A stretch of 33,824 bases of DNA. Source: a virus. The DNA is taken from IMG/VR virus record IMGVR_UViG_3300024231_000806, positions 1-33,824 of that record, one strand, 5' to 3'. The notes under the pieces are model-generated. The model ran no database searches. It was not told where the DNA came from and saw only the letters and a list, made by a program, of their open reading frames with translations. Positions 757 through 29,676 of this stretch are shown piece by piece (positions within the stretch are counted from its first letter, which is position 1; each line of letters begins with the position of its first letter). The translations under genes were made by a program, and so were the position numbers.

Positions 757-2006
757 AGTTCATCTTTTATGCGTTTAAATTCTGGTGCCACTGTCATTAC
801 ATCATGCATACGAAACTTATCATAGTTTTCAGTTATATCTACATATTGTTTCATTATTGCTGGATTATATTGGTGTTCTGGATCTTTACCAAAATTAATA
901 ATTTCCATTAAAGGTTCCTCATAGTCTTCAAAATGTGGACTATTGCCTATACTGGATAAAAATTCTAGTATTTGTTTTTCCTGTTCATCTTTAAGCCATT
1001 GTGGTGCATGTGCCATACTATAATAGTGTGGCTCAATAAGTTGGTTACTACTCATACCAATACCTCTATCGCTAGTCATTTGGTAGTCATGCATAAAGCG
1101 CCAAAAGTCTGCAATATGCAATGCATTTGTCATTTGATTGACTGTGGTAACTCGTACTTTAATACGTTTACCTTCTTTAGTATTGCTATATTTGACTAGT
1201 TTATCAAAGTTTTTCCAGACAGAAGGCCACTTGGAAGGTGGACGCAAATAGTCGTTCATATCGCCCATACCTTCCAAGGAGCAGTTTACAATCACTTTTT
1301 CGAACTTCCCTAATTGTTCTAACCATCTGTCTTGCATATTGGTAATATTGGTATAGAAACTAAGTTCGATATGACTGGCGTGTCCGGATTCTACTGCGAG
1401 GTCTAGCAAGGTAAACATGTCCTTGGCAACCGTAGGTTCCCCGCCTATTAGTTTGATTTTACGAGCTTTCCCAATCATTTCCTCAAAGCTCGCCCAGTCT
1501 ATTCCAGGTTGAAGAAGAGCCTGCTTCTTGTTTGCAATCATGCCATGCCAATCGGGATGGTCTGCCCCGAGTCCGCTTTCAACCATTTGTGCTCGCTCGA
1601 CACTTACTAAGTGTGAAGCCTCTTTATTGCACATCTGACATTGTAAATTGCATAAATTACCAAGCCTGAAATCAAATTGTAAAGGTTGTTCTACCTCCCA
1701 ATCGTTGACGGAAGCGTCAGCAACCACTTCGTCAATTACGTCTTCCCACACCTCATTTTCCCATTGGCGTGAGCTAACTATATTATTTCTTTCTAGATGT
1801 TCACATTCTACACATTCAGGAAGCCACTCCCCTTCTGCCATGCGTCTACGTACATCTTTTATGTAGTCGTGATTCCATGTACCCTGGATCCCAAGTTTTT
1901 CTTGATCCACAAGTTCTTCTGGCTCCTTTGCCATACAGCAAAGCCTATATCGACCTCCATTATATGTACTATATTGTACAAATGGTAAAGCACAAAATCC
2001 GCTCAT
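753..2006 (-). CDS. Radical SAM protein with N-terminal SPASM/twitch-like cysteines
   Basis: The protein has 417 aa. The CxxxCxxC motif for the SAM-binding 4Fe-4S cluster is C119-C123-C126 (CNLQCQMC), followed by GGEPTV at 188-193, the usual GGE SAM-contact motif. The N-terminus carries C5, C23-C24 and C65-x2-C68, a pattern resembling an auxiliary-cluster (twitch/SPASM) module placed ahead of the barrel. It would make a 5'-deoxyadenosyl radical; the substrate is unknown. It is the last gene of a tight operon and overlaps the previous radical SAM gene by ATGA at 2003-2006. It shares its architecture with the genes at 2003-3118 and 4085-5512 but diverges in sequence, so the three are probably non-identical paralogues. 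Confidence 0.9.
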   Translation of the reverse strand: MSGFCALPFVQYSTYNGGRYRLCCMAKEPEELVDQEKLGIQGTWNHDYIKDVRRRMAEGEWLPECVECEHLERNNIVSSRQWENEVWEDVIDEVVADASVNDWEVEQPLQFDFRLGNLCNLQCQMCNKEASHLVSVERAQMVESGLGADHPDWHGMIANKKQALLQPGIDWASFEEMIGKARKIKLIGGEPTVAKDMFTLLDLAVESGHASHIELSFYTNITNMQDRWLEQLGKFEKVIVNCSLEGMGDMNDYLRPPSKWPSVWKNFDKLVKYSNTKEGKRIKVRVTTVNQMTNALHIADFWRFMHDYQMTSDRGIGMSSNQLIEPHYYSMAHAPQWLKDEQEKQILEFLSSIGNSPHFEDYEEPLMEIINFGKDPEHQYNPAIMKQYVDITENYDKFRMHDVMTVAPEFKRIKDEL

Positions 2007-3118
2007 AATAGTTCTCTTATATCTTGATTAAAGTAATTGTCTATTACTTTTTCTTTGTTTATAATTTGTTCATCAGTATATGTTTTCTCTGATTCCTGTT
2101 CTAATGTATTTAACAATCTTTTTCTAAACGTTTCATATATATCTAAGTTCTTAATATATTCTTTAGCCAGTTCTTTATCTTTTGGATCCATATTTGCAAT
2201 ACACATATGAAAAGGACGTCTGGCAATATCCATACTATACCCAGTACCTTTGCTTTCAATATAGTCTAATAAAGGCTGTAAATTAAAAATGTTAAATCTA
2301 CTTACAACAAAATGTACACGCATTGTTATGGGGAAACCTGTATCTTTTAAGTTTAAATAAAAATTAAAAGTGTTATCTATGTCTTTCCATTTATACGGTC
2401 CAGGTCTTAGTGTTTCGTTTAATTTACCATACCCATCTATACTTAATACTATTGTAAGTGCTTTAAGTTTTTTCCACGTTTCTAGTACCTTTTTGCTAGG
2501 CAATATAGTTGCATTTGTATGATAGTCAATTTGTACTTTATTAATATTACTACTCTGGCTTGCTAATTTTTTAATAAACTCGTCGTGTTGTTTTGCAAGT
2601 AAAGGTTCCCCTCCTACTAATTTTACACGTTCAATACTAGATAAATCTGTATCAAACCAGTCTATACTAAAGTCTAGATCCTCTGTAACATCTTCTGTAA
2701 GGGGGGTGTTGGTGTGTCTTTTTATAGCAAGCCATTTGCTACTATAGCCTTCATTACACATTCTACAAGCAAGATTACAATGATGGCTAAATGCCATCTC
2801 TAAAAATTTTAGTTTAGGGGGTTTTGTAAATGTGTTATCTTTTAGATAGGTGTTATTAGCATCAGTACGCATACTCTTTCCTGATGTTTGTTCATCCTTA
2901 AAGCATCTAGAACAACCAGATGGTTGTTCATTATTTAAAAACTGCTGTCTAAGTTTACTATAATAATCGCCATGCGACCAGCCTTGTTTTAAGCCTTGTG
3001 CAACAGTGGGTAATTCGTTTGGTTTATTACTAAATCTACAACAGGGTTTTAGCTCTCCTGCTATATCAACAGCGGTATGCACCCAAGGAAATATACATAA
3101 ATTCTTAGGTGCATCCAT
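2003..3118 (-). CDS. Radical SAM protein with N-terminal SPASM/twitch-like cysteines
   Basis: The protein has 371 aa. N-terminal cysteines are C8 (CIFPWVH), C26-C27 and C69-x2-C72; the radical SAM motif is C114-C118-C121 (CNLACRMC) and GGEP starts at 169. The order of motifs matches its two neighbours: CxxPW, CC, CxxC, CxxxCxxC, GGE. It starts one base after the nucleosidase stop and its own stop overlaps the next start, so translation is probably coupled. The N-terminal module likely binds a further Fe-S cluster. Peptide or glycan modification is possible by analogy with SPASM/twitch enzymes, but nothing in the sequence names the substrate. Confidence 0.9.
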   Translation of the reverse strand: MDAPKNLCIFPWVHTAVDIAGELKPCCRFSNKPNELPTVAQGLKQGWSHGDYYSKLRQQFLNNEQPSGCSRCFKDEQTSGKSMRTDANNTYLKDNTFTKPPKLKFLEMAFSHHCNLACRMCNEGYSSKWLAIKRHTNTPLTEDVTEDLDFSIDWFDTDLSSIERVKLVGGEPLLAKQHDEFIKKLASQSSNINKVQIDYHTNATILPSKKVLETWKKLKALTIVLSIDGYGKLNETLRPGPYKWKDIDNTFNFYLNLKDTGFPITMRVHFVVSRFNIFNLQPLLDYIESKGTGYSMDIARRPFHMCIANMDPKDKELAKEYIKNLDIYETFRKRLLNTLEQESEKTYTDEQIINKEKVIDNYFNQDIRELL

Positions 3119-4084: not shown

Positions 4085-5512
4085 TTATTCATCCTCTGGT
4101 TCATCTAATAAATAGGCCATCTCTGGAAAAGTGGCTCTAAAGTCAGTGCCTCTCTGGGCATCTAATTTCGTCAAATATTCTCTAAATTCAGGTAGTCTGC
4201 GTGTCCAGTCTTCGCTACGTGCAAAGCTAATCATTCCACGCAATCTTTTAATACCATAGCTTGCATTTTCCCATTCGTCATATGTTACTTTGCCCTTGTG
4301 CCAACTAGGAACACCTAGTTCCCAATTTTCTTTCCACCACTCAATAAATTCTTCGTATTTGGCTTCACATTTGTCCATAAATTCATCTGGTAGTACTTTA
4401 ACATTTAAGTGTCCTGGCCAATATACAAAGTGATAGTTGATACCACCTGCACCAAATGGCCACATATTTGTTTTGTGTAATCCACTCTCTGTTAGTTTCC
4501 ATTTAAGGAAATCTGGAATATAGTAAATGTTAAGAGCGTTCACTGCACATGCAATTGTAACTTCTACATTATTACTTGTTTGTGTATCTAGGCGTTTAAA
4601 CATTTCCAATTGGTGATCCCATTGACTAGGGTATCTAATATAATCATTCATTGCACCAATACTGTCAATACTGTAGTGGAAGCGTACCTTTTTAAAATGT
4701 TTCCATTGCTCTAACAATCTATCAGGTAACTCGATACCATTACTATTATAGCGTACTTCGATTTGATCTGCATATCCCATTTCAATAACTTTATCTAGGA
4801 TTTCATAATGCTCGTCAATAACAGTTGATTCGCCACCAGCAAAATATAGTTGTTTAATGAATGGAATTTGTGCATAAAACTGTTCCCAAAACACTGGGTT
4901 ATCTTTATGCCAGTTGTAACTTGCGCCAAATGTTTTGCCTTTATTTGCCCAAACCATAGTTTCTTTAAGGCTCTCGTTAGAGATTTTAGGATATAATCCT
5001 TGCCAATCTTTTACCCAGCCACTTGAATCGTGAGGAGAACACATTACGCATCCTAACTGACATTTTGTACCCATACGGATATCAATATATCTTAGTTTAC
5101 TATTTGTGCTACCATCCTCATATGTTTCTTTTACAAGTTCATCAATATCAATACCATCACGCATCCAATAGGCAGTTTCCCATTGGCGTTTACTCATGTG
5201 TCCTGCATCTTCTTCTTTATAACACTTTAGACAACTTGCTGGCTTTTGTCCTGCAAGCATCATTTTCCTTACACCTCGCATATATGTATTATTCCATGCG
5301 GTGCTTAAATCTGTAGTATTTAAATTGGCTGGCTTTCCGTCTTCTGTTTTAACGATTCCAATTCTGCCGCCATGTTTCTTATCGTTGGTTGCTCCTACAC
5401 TACTAGCATTTGCTGTACAGCATACTCGCATACTTCCGTCTGGTCTTGTGCTTAAATGTATCCAAGGCAAAATACAAAAGGTGTCACTGGGTAATTTTTG
5501 ATCTTCTGACAT
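4085..5512 (-). CDS. Radical SAM protein with N-terminal SPASM/twitch-like cysteines
   Basis: At 475 aa this is the largest of the three. N-terminal cysteines are C13 (CILPWIH), C31-C32 and C94-x2-C97. The radical SAM motif is C151-C155-C158 (CQLGCVMC), and GGEST lies at 226-230. A longer segment between the CC pair and CxxC, an insertion near 160-215, and a C-terminal extension after about 400 separate it from its paralogues. It is the first radical SAM gene of the group, directly upstream of pseudoazurin. Function beyond SAM radical chemistry is not predictable from the sequence. Confidence 0.9.
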   Translation of the reverse strand: MSEDQKLPSDTFCILPWIHLSTRPDGSMRVCCTANASSVGATNDKKHGGRIGIVKTEDGKPANLNTTDLSTAWNNTYMRGVRKMMLAGQKPASCLKCYKEEDAGHMSKRQWETAYWMRDGIDIDELVKETYEDGSTNSKLRYIDIRMGTKCQLGCVMCSPHDSSGWVKDWQGLYPKISNESLKETMVWANKGKTFGASYNWHKDNPVFWEQFYAQIPFIKQLYFAGGESTVIDEHYEILDKVIEMGYADQIEVRYNSNGIELPDRLLEQWKHFKKVRFHYSIDSIGAMNDYIRYPSQWDHQLEMFKRLDTQTSNNVEVTIACAVNALNIYYIPDFLKWKLTESGLHKTNMWPFGAGGINYHFVYWPGHLNVKVLPDEFMDKCEAKYEEFIEWWKENWELGVPSWHKGKVTYDEWENASYGIKRLRGMISFARSEDWTRRLPEFREYLTKLDAQRGTDFRATFPEMAYLLDEPEDE

Positions 5513-5520
5513 TAATTTTC

Positions 5521-6210
5521 CTATGTTTGATGTTTGACAAACTCATATGTAGTATTAGATTCTCCAGGAATTTTTACTACGGATGTATATACATCTGGTT
5601 GTCTATTGTCAACGTATTTAGCCGCTTTTTTATCAAAGCCTGGTAAAGTACTAAAAGAAGTTTTAGGATCATACTTTTGCCAATCCATATTTTTACGCAT
5701 TGCAAAGTCTGTTATTTTAGAACTTTCCTGCCATAGTAGTTCCCACATTCTATCGTAGTTTTTATAGCCTGGTCTGTAATCAGGATAGTGTAGTTCATCA
5801 AAACACATAACTTCGCTCCACCAAGCAAAACTTTTTTGTGGTTCCCTATATACTAGGAATATATAATCACCAGGAAAGTGATTATAGATATAGTCTAGAT
5901 TAAAATTACGGGCAAAGAAATGACTTTTAATAATACGATATCCATCACCTGAGAATACATTGTTGATGTCATCAGTTAATTTATGAGGTTCAACAAAGTT
6001 AAAATCTGTCCAATCCTCACCACAGCCCATACCAGGTCCCCAATAACTTCCTCGATGACCGTTGTTGCCATCCTCTTTAGTTCTTGGTCTATGATATTGT
6101 GTTCTGTTTGGAGTTTCGTCTGAGCGGTCTGCTGGAAGTAGATGTCGCATTACAATATCTATGCCGCTCCATTTACTTCCAGGAATTCCGCAAAACCATA
6201 TGTTGTTCAT
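5521..6210 (-). CDS. Sulfotransferase-like protein, tentative
   Basis: The protein has 229 aa. The start FCGIPGSKWSGID resembles the 5'-phosphosulfate P-loop of PAPS-dependent sulfotransferases, and YRIIKSHFF plus VYREPQKSFAWW resemble the later beta-strand and 3'-phosphate-binding region (usually R-x-P). The match is by eye and loose, so other P-loop families remain possible. It starts 7 bases after the 6217-6504 gene and lies just upstream of the radical SAM cluster, so it may act on the same unknown substrate. There is no signal peptide or membrane segment, so it should be cytoplasmic. Confidence 0.45.
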   Translation of the reverse strand: MNNIWFCGIPGSKWSGIDIVMRHLLPADRSDETPNRTQYHRPRTKEDGNNGHRGSYWGPGMGCGEDWTDFNFVEPHKLTDDINNVFSGDGYRIIKSHFFARNFNLDYIYNHFPGDYIFLVYREPQKSFAWWSEVMCFDELHYPDYRPGYKNYDRMWELLWQESSKITDFAMRKNMDWQKYDPKTSFSTLPGFDKKAAKYVDNRQPDVYTSVVKIPGESNTTYEFVKHQT

Positions 6211-26693: not shown

Positions 26694-27758
26694 TTATAGT
26701 TCTAGTATTCTGTCTATCATGACAGAACTATTTAGATAATTGTTCATTAAAATTTGTTGCTGTTTGGCAACTAATGGTAACAAACTTTCATAATTGTTTA
26801 GTTTATCTTGGATAAACGACTCTAAATCTTTTCTATGGAAATTAAATAATTCCTCATTTTCTGTCCATTGTGTAGGGTATTTAAATTCAGGTAAATACAT
26901 TTCTTTATAACTACATCTATCAGGGACAATTGGAATAGCACCTGTAAGCACTGCTTCCATTACACTTATTCCTAAATTTTCATGCAAAGCGCAACTAAAG
27001 ACAATTTTACTTGTTGCCATTTTATCATAATATGCATCTTTATCTAAATTCATTTTTTGTGTAATGCACATGTCAAATTTATCACCCAATGCTTCAGCAA
27101 TAAACGGTTGCTTATCATCATTATAACGATGCGGCCACATAACTGTATTAGTTTTAGGTGTACTTTGCCTTAGCATTAGAGGCTCGATAATAAGCTCATG
27201 TGGCTGTCCACTCCTAATTGCACGATCCTGATATTTTTCTGGAATGTCTAAATTTTTAACAAACATATCCTTGTGACTATCAGTTGCAAAATAGTTATAA
27301 TCACTTGACATAAACCACGCTTGCTCTTGTAGCCAAGGCCATGGTTTACTCATTGTATATCCAAGTATGTCACTAGGATCATATGCACCCGCATGCCAAA
27401 TACTATGTATTTCTACATTAATACCTAATAGCTCGCTCATGTACTTGATTGGAGTAATAATAAAATTCCAAGCATCTGTAATTAAAAACTTATCTCCATC
27501 TTTAATAATACCATTACTAAACATACGACTTACTTCTGCCGCTTGTGTAGATTTATATACATTTGTTGCACCAAAGTCTAAAAACGCACCTTCAGTACGT
27601 TGTTCAGGAGAAAAGTCTTCTCCATCAATAGTAACAATATTATATGCTAAACTTTCTACCCTAACCCGCTTTTCAATAATTTTAGGAATATTGTCATACC
27701 ATTGTTTGGTGTATCTCTGATCGATAGGTTCGATTGGTATAATATAAATTGTATTCAT
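26694..27758 (-). CDS. GT-B glycosyltransferase (GT4-like)
   Basis: 354 aa. ENLGISVMEAVLTGAIPIVPDRCSYKEMY is the C-terminal GT4 nucleotide-sugar motif (E-x7-E type). The earlier half has a Rossmann-like domain and an insertion rich in aromatic residues (about 135-165). It starts inside the aldolase stop (ATGA). Possible acceptors are DNA bases, as in T4, or a surface glycan; the sequence does not decide. No membrane segment or signal peptide is seen. Confidence 0.75.
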   Translation of the reverse strand: MNTIYIIPIEPIDQRYTKQWYDNIPKIIEKRVRVESLAYNIVTIDGEDFSPEQRTEGAFLDFGATNVYKSTQAAEVSRMFSNGIIKDGDKFLITDAWNFIITPIKYMSELLGINVEIHSIWHAGAYDPSDILGYTMSKPWPWLQEQAWFMSSDYNYFATDSHKDMFVKNLDIPEKYQDRAIRSGQPHELIIEPLMLRQSTPKTNTVMWPHRYNDDKQPFIAEALGDKFDMCITQKMNLDKDAYYDKMATSKIVFSCALHENLGISVMEAVLTGAIPIVPDRCSYKEMYLPEFKYPTQWTENEELFNFHRKDLESFIQDKLNNYESLLPLVAKQQQILMNNYLNSSVMIDRILEL

Positions 27759-28564
27759 TCACTTGCCTTTGTTATCATTTTAATATTTTGTTCCAATTTA
27801 GCATTAAACTCGTTATCTGTCAATGAATAATCCAATCCTTCGCTTAATGCTCTCGAAAAACTAGCAGTTACATCTGCATTCGCACTCAGTCTGCGGCATG
27901 CTTCCATAGTAGGATATCCACCACTTAGGAATACAACTTTTTCTACATTAGGAAACGCTGTAAGGTTATGATATAAGTTGGGTACTTCTGGCGGTGTTAG
28001 TTTAAGAATGCATTTACCTGGAAACTCATCCAGAAACTCTTGTAAGTGATACATAAGAGCTGATTCAACTTTAGCTTTAATAGGATTGTCGATAGGTATT
28101 TCAGGCTCAATGATTGGTACAAGACCGTAGTCACAAATAGTACGAGCAAGTGTAAACTGTTGTTTGAGTACAGGATGTACCATGCCGACACCTTTAACAA
28201 TGCTACGCATCTTTGTACCATAAATCTTAGGACCAATGCCGTTTGTAGCAAACTCCAACATCTGCTTTACTGGAAACTGTTTGAGTGTTCCATCTTCATC
28301 ACATCCACTGTCGATCTTTAGGAACGTGTCAATGCCTTTTTCATCCAAGACGTTAACCATGCCACGGGTGACTGTGTCTTGGTAGAGGATTGCTCCCCAG
28401 ATGTTTTCATCGTTGAAGTCAGGACTGTTGACCATTCTAAGACGCATAGCATGAACTTTCTCCATCTTGTTTTCTTCTGTGTATTCTTGTCCGTAGCGTT
28501 CTAGTACGCCTCCAGTTGAACCACCACTGTGATCCATTGCTGCAATAAATCTTGGATCACTCAT
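27755..28564 (-). CDS. Class I fructose-bisphosphate aldolase
   Basis: 269 aa from ATG 28564 (MSDPRFIAAMDHSGGSTGG), overlapping the HAD gene by 8 bases. It follows the Staphylococcus-type class I aldolase closely: FIAAMDHSGGST, KVHAMRLRMVNSP, GAILYQDT, YGTKMRSIVK, GLVPIIEPE, CILKLTPPE (Schiff-base lysine), LSGGYPTMEA and ASFSRALSEGL. Length is slightly short of the usual 295. It should interconvert fructose-1,6-bisphosphate and triose phosphates, which would redirect host central carbon flow, as transaldolase does in cyanophages. Confidence 0.9.
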   Translation of the reverse strand: MSDPRFIAAMDHSGGSTGGVLERYGQEYTEENKMEKVHAMRLRMVNSPDFNDENIWGAILYQDTVTRGMVNVLDEKGIDTFLKIDSGCDEDGTLKQFPVKQMLEFATNGIGPKIYGTKMRSIVKGVGMVHPVLKQQFTLARTICDYGLVPIIEPEIPIDNPIKAKVESALMYHLQEFLDEFPGKCILKLTPPEVPNLYHNLTAFPNVEKVVFLSGGYPTMEACRRLSANADVTASFSRALSEGLDYSLTDNEFNAKLEQNIKMITKASE

Positions 28565-28895
28565 ATGACTCTCCTGTTTCACGGAAGAAGTTTTCACTCC
28601 AAAACGCTTTGTCGTCAATCCACACATCGTAGTTTTCTTTTTCGCCTACGCTTAGTTCGTGATGCTTTGCGCCCCAGTCCATAAGTTGCTTGTATGTAAG
28701 TTCGTAATAATCTACACCGCTTACACAGCCACGTGCTGTCATATATTTTATTGTGTGTCCTGCATCGTATAATGCGTTTACTCGTGCAATGCGCTCTGGC
28801 ATTGGAATATGATTAGCATAGTCTTTTTTACCACTACCATCCATAAAGTAAACCTCTTGACAAATAGTTCCGTCGATGTCAATCACATATTTCAT
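28557..28895 (-). CDS. Small HAD-superfamily phosphatase-like protein
   Basis: 112 aa. DIDGTIC gives the nucleophile D6 and D8, MTARG the second motif, and DVWIDDKAF the acidic motif IV; there is no cap domain. Substrates of such short HAD proteins include sugar phosphates and nucleotides. It is the first protein gene after the tmRNA and overlaps the aldolase, so a sugar-phosphate role is possible. A second HAD protein is at 30631-31218. Confidence 0.8.
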   Translation of the reverse strand: MKYVIDIDGTICQEVYFMDGSGKKDYANHIPMPERIARVNALYDAGHTIKYMTARGCVSGVDYYELTYKQLMDWGAKHHELSVGEKENYDVWIDDKAFWSENFFRETGESYE

Positions 28896-28964
28896 TAAAT
28901 GTCCTTTGTGTCAAAGTTTAAAGTGGCACTTCTGTTGCTAGGCAGTACCCGCCCCCACATACCC

Positions 28965-29006
28965 TTAGGCTGCTAGTGCCATTTCTGGCGCTCTATTTGC
29001 GTTTGC
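28965..29006 (-). other. tmRNA proteolysis-tag reading frame
   Basis: The resume codon GCA at 29006-29004 begins 13 codons reading ANANRAPEMALAA, then TAA at 28967-28965. The LAA ending fits ClpXP recognition, and the AN start resembles alphaproteobacterial tags such as Caulobacter ANDNFAEEFAVAA. Confidence 0.92.
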
Positions 29007-29086
29007 ATTTAGAAATGTTGACCAATAACGCAGTCATCCGGTTAACTCCACTTCACTTTCACACCTGTCGATCCTAGTTCTACCCC

Positions 29087-29169
29087 ATCAAAAACACACT
29101 GCCAACCACGAGGCTCAAAGAACCCTTAAAGGCGATTTCGCGGGTCAGACCCTAGAAACAGTGTGCTTA
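29087..29169 (-). other. tmRNA intervening segment removed in processing
   Basis: An 83-base segment lies between the encoded CCA end and the GGGG start. Its two ends pair (CACACTG with CAGTGTG, plus flanking A-U and G-U pairs), which extends the acceptor stem in the precursor. Inside are small hairpins GGGTC-TGACCC and GCGAAATCGC. Confidence 0.8.
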
Positions 29170-29235
29170 TGGTGGAGTAGCCCGGTACTGCCCCGGGGTC
29201 CAGTATGTGTCTACGTTGCTTCAACGCTAACAGTT

Positions 29236-29266
29236 TATTTATATACTATATTTGTAGGTTTGTCAA
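29236..29266 (-). promoter_or_regulatory. Promoter of the tmRNA: TTGACA-17-TATAAATA
   Basis: TTGACA (29266-29261), 17 bases, TATAAA (29243-29238), the start expected near 29231. The -10 extends to TATAAATA (29243-29236), identical to the T4 late box, so the promoter could serve both host sigma70 and a phage late factor. Confidence 0.88.
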
Positions 29267-29273
29267 GAACAAT

Positions 29274-29489
29274 TTACCATCGTTGGTCTTTTATTTTTCG
29301 TACTGTTTTTGTAGCTCTAATAGCATTCATTATTCTAAGCAACTGATTTGATTTAATATTTGAATGCCATCTGTTTTTTGTATCAAATGTTTTTGCATAG
29401 TCACATGCTTCTGTAAACTTTGTAGAAACTATTTTTTCTAGGCATTGTAAGTCTTCGTCACTCAGTGACATTATTCCTTTTGGTTCCAT
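29274..29489 (-). CDS. Hypothetical phage protein
   Basis: 71 aa from ATG 29489, with GGAG 8 bases upstream; a second ATG at 29471 with AAGGA is the alternative. It is basic and helical, with a KSNQLLRIMNAIRATKTVRKIKDQR tail that could bind nucleic acid. It overlaps the upstream gene by 32 bases and ends 8 bases before the tmRNA promoter. Confidence 0.55.
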   Translation of the reverse strand: MEPKGIMSLSDEDLQCLEKIVSTKFTEACDYAKTFDTKNRWHSNIKSNQLLRIMNAIRATKTVRKIKDQRW

Positions 29490-29676
29490 TGTGGAATCTC
29501 CTATTATATGCTTGTTCAAAACCTTCTTCATAATCACATAACGGAGCCCCATTGCAACCGTCGACCCATAATCTTTTAAAGTAGCTATCTGCTGATTGAA
29601 ATGCTGTAGCATCACTCTCTGGAATATGGCCTTTTACCATCCAAAACAATCTATATGCTTCTTTATGCTCTATCAT
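29458..29676 (-). CDS. Hypothetical phage protein
   Basis: 72 aa. FQSADSYFKRLWVDGCNGAPLCDYEEGFEQAYNRRF has two cysteines and a C-terminal helix. GAGG lies about 14 bases upstream, and an exact TATAAATA sits between that and the ATG (29682-29689). No family recognised. Confidence 0.55.
   Translation of the reverse strand: MIEHKEAYRLFWMVKGHIPESDATAFQSADSYFKRLWVDGCNGAPLCDYEEGFEQAYNRRFHNGTKRNNVTE

Follow-up and report, generated by a model that had tools for sequence, protein, structure and literature searches.

A gene that appears to encode the RNA with which bacteria rescue stalled ribosomes, lying among the genes of a virus, raises two questions: whether it is a genuine viral gene and what the virus would gain from it. 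Such a gene lies in the stretch analyzed here (33,824 nucleotides of an IMG/VR virus record, hereafter the window), for which an earlier note had proposed a phage-borne, circularly permuted tmRNA. Phage tmRNAs of this type have precedents. The consulted excerpts of PMC9004378 describe a two-piece tmRNA in the OM43 phage Melnitz and others in pelagimyophages, count 53 two-piece genes among 133 unique phage tmRNAs, 50 of them being marine or aquatic, and propose early expression and tagging of host proteins. Excerpts of PMC11915505 count 79 unique phage tmRNAs, those of PMC4131195 list phage ssrA genes including that of DS6A, and those of PMC12656738 report tmRNA in Bradyrhizobium phages. The novelty implied by the earlier note falls away, since two-piece tmRNAs of marine phages are already in the excerpts of PMC9004378 and an annotated ssrA of this kind stands in a deposited phage record (MN602268). 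The window gene is a further case of the known phage two-piece tmRNAs, and its added value is comparative.

Anatomy and conservation of the permuted tmRNA gene

A complete circularly permuted tmRNA gene occupies positions 28920-29270 on the minus strand of the window, the strand to which all coordinates in this section refer. The Rfam alpha_tmRNA model (RF01849), which the earlier note had named as a check, matches 29270-28920 over its whole length (model positions 1-355 of 355) with 112.7 bits and an E value of 3.1e-30, above its gathering cut-off of 50. The tmRNA_permuted model (RF04321) matches 29231-28965 with 108.5 bits (E 1.6e-20; gathering cut-off, 47), and ARAGORN reports a permuted tmRNA (tmRNA*) with the tag ANANRAPEMALAA. 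A permissive Rfam scan of 28700-29500 returned only three other families, each under its cut-off. By these matches, the window gene is a real and intact permuted tmRNA of the alpha type, and the identification made in the earlier note holds.

The order of the parts is as the earlier note had read it, with CUACUCC-ACCA (29180-29170) located 5' of GGGGUAG (29086-29080), so that the acceptor half is encoded first and its CCA is encoded as well. CUACUCC and GGGGUAG form the seven pairs previously claimed, a G3-U type pair among them. The acceptor piece, which is the 3' part of the tRNA-like domain (29170-29231), comprises an outer strand, the hairpin CGUUG-AAG-CAACG, the T arm, and CUACUCC, as delineated by both Rfam models and helix counts; its encoded ACCA end lies at 29173-29170, and its 5' end at 29231 is a prediction taken from the start of the RF04321 model. 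An 83-base intervening sequence (29087-29169), defined by its fold and length, separates this piece from the next. In the fold of 29180-29060, the spacer folds back and extends the acceptor stem (-43.5 kcal/mol; z, -2.61; 4 of 200 shuffles as good), in keeping with the earlier observation that the intervening arms pair. The fold and pairing counts define a closing stem of this spacer between AAGCACAC (29168-29161) and GUGUGUUU (29099-29092). The coding piece (28920-29086, with RF01849 reaching 28920) contains GGGGUAG as the 5' acceptor strand, a D-like segment, the tag frame, and the 3' domain. The tag frame found by ARAGORN, ANANRAPEMALAA and its stop (28965-29006), is complete, as had been stated, and a 3' helix pairs GGUAC (28949-28945) with GUGCC (28929-28925) around AACAGAA (28936-28930). 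An RNA of this layout would probably be in two pieces when mature.

We assessed 42 pairs in an alignment of 29 hand-chosen related phage sequences (28 distinct); the window sequence served as the template for the structure, a choice that favours this structure somewhat. The pairs are formed in 93.0% of cells versus 79.5% in shuffles, and both-sided changes occur at 29 of the 42 pairs versus 15.3 in shuffles, with none of 500 shuffles as high. When the partners were slid by 1-3 positions, only 34.8-41.8% remained paired. All 28 distinct rows keep the U-G wobble pair of the acceptor stem, in which two other pairs (columns 100-253 and 101-252) show both-sided change in 16 and 14 of the 28. A G-U pair in the acceptor stem is the identity element for alanine charging. 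The closing stem of the spacer also covaries (97.3% of cells paired; six of eight pairs changed on both sides), and a helix of at least five pairs surrounds AACAGAA in 71 of the 73 distinct phage sequences with this motif, compared to 9-25 of 73 in eight strand-swapped controls. The phage tmRNA, functional in appearance, is probably active.

Viral setting, neighbouring genes, and promoter

The gene is viral, as the earlier note had maintained. The window is itself a virus record, and the same tmRNA lies 5' of the same HAD-like and aldolase genes in a further five virus contigs (L126, L128, L129, L136, and L203). All five share the tag ANANRAPEMALAA, which is also found in record G008 (L219 and L472). 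This recurrence, together with the helix covariation, indicates that the tmRNA is no chance resemblance. Genes of the window match phage protein families for the ribonucleotide reductase (RNR) small subunit, an exonuclease, GTP cyclohydrolase, PAAR, a QueE-like protein, thymidine kinase, and a protease; no terminase match was found within the window. The whole contig of L128 (L496) has a phage-type exonuclease, an RNR large subunit, and a weak tail-protein match near its tmRNA. G008, a relative by its aldolase gene, matches the terminase large subunit and tail sheath of Pelagibacter phage HTVC008M, and 5 of the 12 HTVC008M proteins tried match G008 (terminase, sheath, UvsW, UvsX, and NrdA), with none matching G001, the record closest to the window (described below). 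The family phrog_2, which we take to be the terminase large subunit, matches G008 at the same place as the terminase large subunit match; since phrog_2 matches 11 of 14 control genomes as well as 4 of 13 viral records (one weakly), it says little by itself. Judging from its kin, the phage is probably marine.

Other genes of the window drew our attention in passing. Three proteins encoded at 753-2006, 2003-3118, and 4085-5512 resemble radical SAM/SPASM proteins by eye, the third matching a radical SAM phage family, and G001 has several more proteins with similar beginnings. The 911-residue protein encoded at 21087-23822 matches a phage protease family and by eye is of the S8 type with a signal-like start.

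Directly 3' of the tmRNA, on the same strand, is a gene that we named HAD-like by eye (28557-28895), which matches phrog_1238 (phosphoheptose isomerase, 2.5e-18) and phrog_415 (polynucleotide kinase, 1.1e-8) and has no Pfam match. It is followed by a class I fructose-bisphosphate aldolase-like gene (27755-28570, minus strand), which matches PF00274 (7.6e-8; 32 bits, cut-off 22.2) and has no PHROG match. The tmRNA thus heads a short run of genes, and the earlier description of it as a leader is correct as to position. Only 24 bases separate the end of the model match from the HAD-like start, and a scan for terminator-like sites on the minus strand found none between the two, which makes cotranscription of the tmRNA with the downstream genes likely. 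Among relatives, the tmRNA lies directly before the HAD gene, about 200, 660, or 1960 bases before it, or 3' of the aldolase gene (L134).

A script search identified a promoter upstream of the tmRNA (29236-29266, minus strand) consisting of TTGACA (29266-29261), a 17-base spacer, and TATAAATA (29243-29236). The exact motif TTGACA-N17-TATAAATA is present upstream of 29 of 83 distinct phage tmRNAs and in none of the 188 distinct host upstream regions (0 of 87 in an alphaproteobacterial class sample and 0 of 101 in a Rhodobacterales sample). Relaxing the requirement to a score of 10 or more out of 12 brings in 47 of the 83 phage regions, 2 of the 87 class hosts, and 2 of the 101 Rhodobacterales. 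By a simple motif test over 3.59 Mb of phage loci, with both strands scanned, near-duplicates kept, and 120 of the loci selected by a tmRNA pattern, 59 of the 63 exact occurrences precede a tmRNA. Of the remaining four, the one in L154 likewise stands upstream of a tmRNA, detected by cmscan with 108.4 bits and missed by ARAGORN, so the promoter motif itself pointed to an overlooked gene. A standard promoter scan did not return the window promoter because its rule requires T at the last -10 position. The L154 tmRNA lies at about 5318-5640 with the tag ANENFALAA by eye; unlike in the window, an apparent terminator hairpin and then a second promoter stand between it and the HAD gene.

We take TATAAATA to be the consensus of T4 late promoters as well, and late transcription was therefore considered. 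A T4-type late promoter is not supported: TATAAATA is not enriched relative to expectation from base composition (15 versus 23.0 expected in G008; 9 versus 22.6 in G001), and gp55 and gp33 of HTVC008M have no match in G008 or G001. The promoter resembles a near-ideal sigma-70 promoter, from which we infer use by the host RNA polymerase and hence early expression.

Relation to host and phage tmRNAs

Host genes for comparison came from two samples. In the class sample, RF04321 exceeded its cut-off in 108 of 114 alphaproteobacterial-class genomes, of which 105 loci were used; 18 were without an ARAGORN gene and the spacer of another 19 could not be read by our script, leaving 68 class rows in a 188-row tree, and 35 of these 37 were restored in a 208-row tree (103 class rows). 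The Rhodobacterales sample consists of genomes with a matching tag, mostly Rhodobacterales by name, and random draws of 35, 20, and 12 from its 100 members entered the 188-, 208-, and 71-row trees, respectively. The 71-row tree further contains 30 of the 68 class rows, drawn from them, and 29 phage rows picked by hand. On the phage side, 45 of the 120 tmRNA-pattern loci had no ARAGORN gene. Near-identical loci were removed for the trees, the promoter counts of 83, 87, and 101, the helix counts, and the tag-change tree; they were kept for the tag counts (of 104, 87, and 103), the spacer lengths, and the 63 promoter occurrences. Two records in metagenome-assembled genomes named Neomarinimicrobiota and Rickettsiales (L281 and L302; PBPT01000016.1 and PALK01000009.1) carry permuted tmRNAs and look like phage by eye, with nuclease-like and cell-wall-hydrolase-like genes and, in L302, an RNR small subunit-like gene. 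We excluded both from the host counts; L281 was counted with the phages and L302 nowhere.

All 29 phage rows of the 71-row tree fall on one side of a branch with support of 96/94. The phage side of the 208-row tree has support of 70, and 81 of the 85 phage rows of the 188-row tree group together (support 99), with four on the host side. Forcing 13 phage rows together with the 12 Rhodobacterales of the 71-row tree was rejected (AU p 0.0057), a value that is optimistic because these 13 rows were chosen after the first tree. The low G+C content (36.5% in the window) could contribute to the phage grouping. These trees point to a likely virus-side group among the sampled tmRNA copies; with such support values, a single origin of all phage copies is unproven.

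The earlier note had suggested a comparison with the Rhodobacterales tag. The resemblance is there, as chromosomal ssrA genes of Rhodobacterales mostly encode ANDN[RK]APAMA[LV]AA and agree with the window tag at 11 of 13 residues at best (as ANDNRAPAMALAA), but the RNA does not group with the sampled Rhodobacterales. They also differ from the window in their short spacers and in lacking the exact promoter. The window spacer measures 83 bases; the median is 74.5 for phage copies (n = 102), 31 for class hosts (n = 68), and 23 for Rhodobacterales (n = 100). We did not accept a host origin from the tag alone: at least 80 of 120 among the matches listed are Rhodobacterales by name, but the search pattern had selected such tags. 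A recent capture from Rhodobacterales is not supported by the AU test. A DNA search of 394 Shimia-family genomes with the window tmRNA gave 13 genomes with only a 32-35-base match.

The nearest described phage systems share the permuted gene and differ in its surroundings. As described in the excerpts of PMC9004378, the tmRNAs of Melnitz and the pelagimyophages resemble that of the window in being permuted, of the alphaproteobacterial type, and carried by marine myophages, with an early promoter upstream and a gene downstream. Melnitz, which we compared by this description, has a glutamine riboswitch by its ssrA, whereas the window has the aldolase/HAD neighbourhood and no Rfam match to a riboswitch of that type in 28700-29500 at E values up to 5. 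ARAGORN also finds a permuted tmRNA in HTVC008M (KC465899), with a different tag, ANFNEYALAA, and different neighbours, the tmRNA lying two small genes from a putative late transcription factor gene. L065 and L069, two members of the large phage branch in the 188-row tree, bear this tag as well, HTVC008M itself being outside the tree. The HTVC008M gene, at about 145120-145461 of KC465899.1 (L475 1442-1783), is unannotated in the deposited record.

The Roseobacter-group phages DSS3_MAL1, MD18, and DSS3P8 likewise carry permuted tmRNAs, with tags ending in EMAIAA. In a blastn search of 50,697 phage records, a collection from which near kin of the window were possibly left out, they alone matched at E 0.01. 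Unlike the window, they have ssrA within a tRNA cluster, and only 10-34% of the query was matched. The 188-row tree places all three with the hosts, and the 208-row tree places them on the phage side; DSS3_MAL1, the only one of them in the 71-row tree, is on the phage side there. The ARAGORN tmRNAs of MD18 (L003, MT270409.1) and DSS3P8 (L004, KT870145.1) are unannotated in their records.

Presence of the tmRNA is patchy even among close relatives. G001 is 99.72% identical to window positions 1-28552 and has no tmRNA match in its 91 kb, so close relatives manage without one. Of the 55 aldolase loci whose upstream sequence extends for 3 kb or more, ARAGORN places a tmRNA there in 19, an undercount, as cmscan of eight loci added one upstream (L154) and one downstream (L134). 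Among 40 records searched whole, RF04321 is found in 22 (15 of 33 from aldolase loci and 7 of 7 from tmRNA-pattern loci). Up to about 28186 the window tracks G001, and from about 28051 it tracks L126/L128; the shared 136 bases are identical to both, which places a mosaic junction at 28051-28186, inside the aldolase gene and outside the tmRNA. L136 and L203 have the tmRNA block in common with the window but diverge from it elsewhere, within the aldolase gene or close by. Both the junction and the patchy presence would be accounted for by homologous exchange within this gene, and the junction may be either a recombination hotspot or an assembly chimera. Since the tmRNA lies wholly on one side of it and is present on six virus records, the tmRNA finding stands in both cases.

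Patchy presence and varied positions near the aldolase gene are also what a passenger would show, that is, a host ssrA recently acquired by chance and without a role. The placement of phage copies on one side of a branch, firm in 71 rows and only at 70 in 208 rows, the rejected grouping with Rhodobacterales, and the covariation within phages all speak against this explanation, and we regard it as highly improbable.

Tag, helper proteins, and proposed role

We consider it probable, with good confidence, that the alpha-type permuted tmRNA gene in the window is functional and belongs to a tailed phage that uses host machinery for ribosome rescue and tagging. The reading draws on sequence evidence, namely, the anatomy, covariation, tag frame, promoter conservation, viral context, and a search for SmpB; from it we infer the timing of transcription, processing, charging, rescue, and degradation. 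SmpB (PF01668) was found in none of 18 viral records, possibly incomplete, and in 10 of 14 control genomes by the same search. The phage thus presumably uses host SmpB, and since the records may be fragments, an SmpB gene could lie outside them. SspB was also found in none of these 18 possibly incomplete records, compared to 2 of 14 controls, and in both Rhodobacterales genomes tested. A phage-carried SspB, as described for pf16 in the excerpts of PMC5587285, was accordingly not retained. In two Rhodobacterales genomes, the chromosomal ssrA is no more than about 3 kb from sspB (G041 C2:53440-56170 and G046 C2:363035-366033).

Under the proposed mechanism, host RNA polymerase would transcribe the phage tmRNA early from the near-ideal sigma-70 promoter, and host tRNA-processing enzymes would excise the structured 83-base spacer to leave two paired RNAs. 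The acceptor piece would be charged by the host alanyl-tRNA synthetase through its G-U pair, and host SmpB would deliver the charged tmRNA to ribosomes that stall in infected cells on messages that are broken or decaying. Such ribosomes would finish on the tag frame and be freed for phage translation, while the unfinished protein would gain ANANRAPEMALAA, whose LAA end should direct it to degradation by host ClpXP.

The phage RNA might instead serve chiefly as a decoy, titrating host SmpB or ribosomes so that trans-translation by the host is blocked. According to the excerpts of PMC4131195 and PMC11915505, tmRNA is inhibited by a DS6A-like molecule, and a strong promoter would suit such a role. 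The RNA of the type found in mycobacteriophage DS6A consists of the tRNA-like domain only, without a tag frame or 3' domain, whereas the window tmRNA has both. An [LIVM]AA end is kept in 102 of 104 phage tags, and the 3' helix is retained in all but two of the sequences counted above; a decoy needs neither, and we judge this role quite improbable.

A rescuing tmRNA could also owe its main benefit to the tag, with altered handling by host adaptors and proteases mattering more than the rescue of ribosomes. The window tag is of the ALAA type and ends in LAA. When only tags of the AN.N form are considered, Asp occupies residue 3 in 56 of 91 from phages versus 179 of 182 from hosts (76 of 79 in the class sample and 103 of 103 in Rhodobacterales, for which the search pattern allowed only Ala, Asp, Glu, Gly, and Val at this residue). 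Distinct tags starting with ANDN number 39 of 68 in phages versus 64 of 75 in hosts (Fisher p 0.0003). On a 70-row phage tree built with the tag cut out, residue 3 requires at least 15 changes; shuffled tags average 21.0 with 15 as the lowest of 200, so inheritance of this trait is only loose. The start of the tag is what alphaproteobacterial SspB recognizes, and the Asp at residue 3 has a role in its binding; the presence of SspB in both Rhodobacterales genomes tested fits a change in tag handling. Drift without selection gives the same picture, however, 56 of 104 phage tags still start with ANDN, and 8 of 87 class-host tags (compared to 13 of 104 in phages) lie outside the AN.N form altogether. 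That re-tuning of the tag is the main gain therefore seems unlikely to us, and any bearing of residue-3 variation on SspB is a guess.

A bolder account, to which we give a small chance, holds that phages of alphaproteobacteria keep their own long-lived two-piece tmRNA lineage, with a dedicated promoter and cassette exchange, and that repeated loss of Asp at residue 3 would let tagged products escape host SspB while the ClpX-type LAA end is kept. Ribosome rescue would then be taken over by the virus and proteolysis re-tuned. The conserved promoter, the virus-side grouping, and the mosaic junction in the aldolase gene are additions to the earlier note. Our search of the phage-tmRNA literature, which covered excerpts and was not closely aimed at these points, found no dedicated promoter, virus-side grouping, or residue-3 variation. 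A promoter nearly exclusive to phage tmRNAs among the loci examined, the virus-side grouping, and a tag position near-fixed in hosts and free in phages provide three handles on why phages carry tmRNA, and each of them is testable in an alphaproteobacterium.
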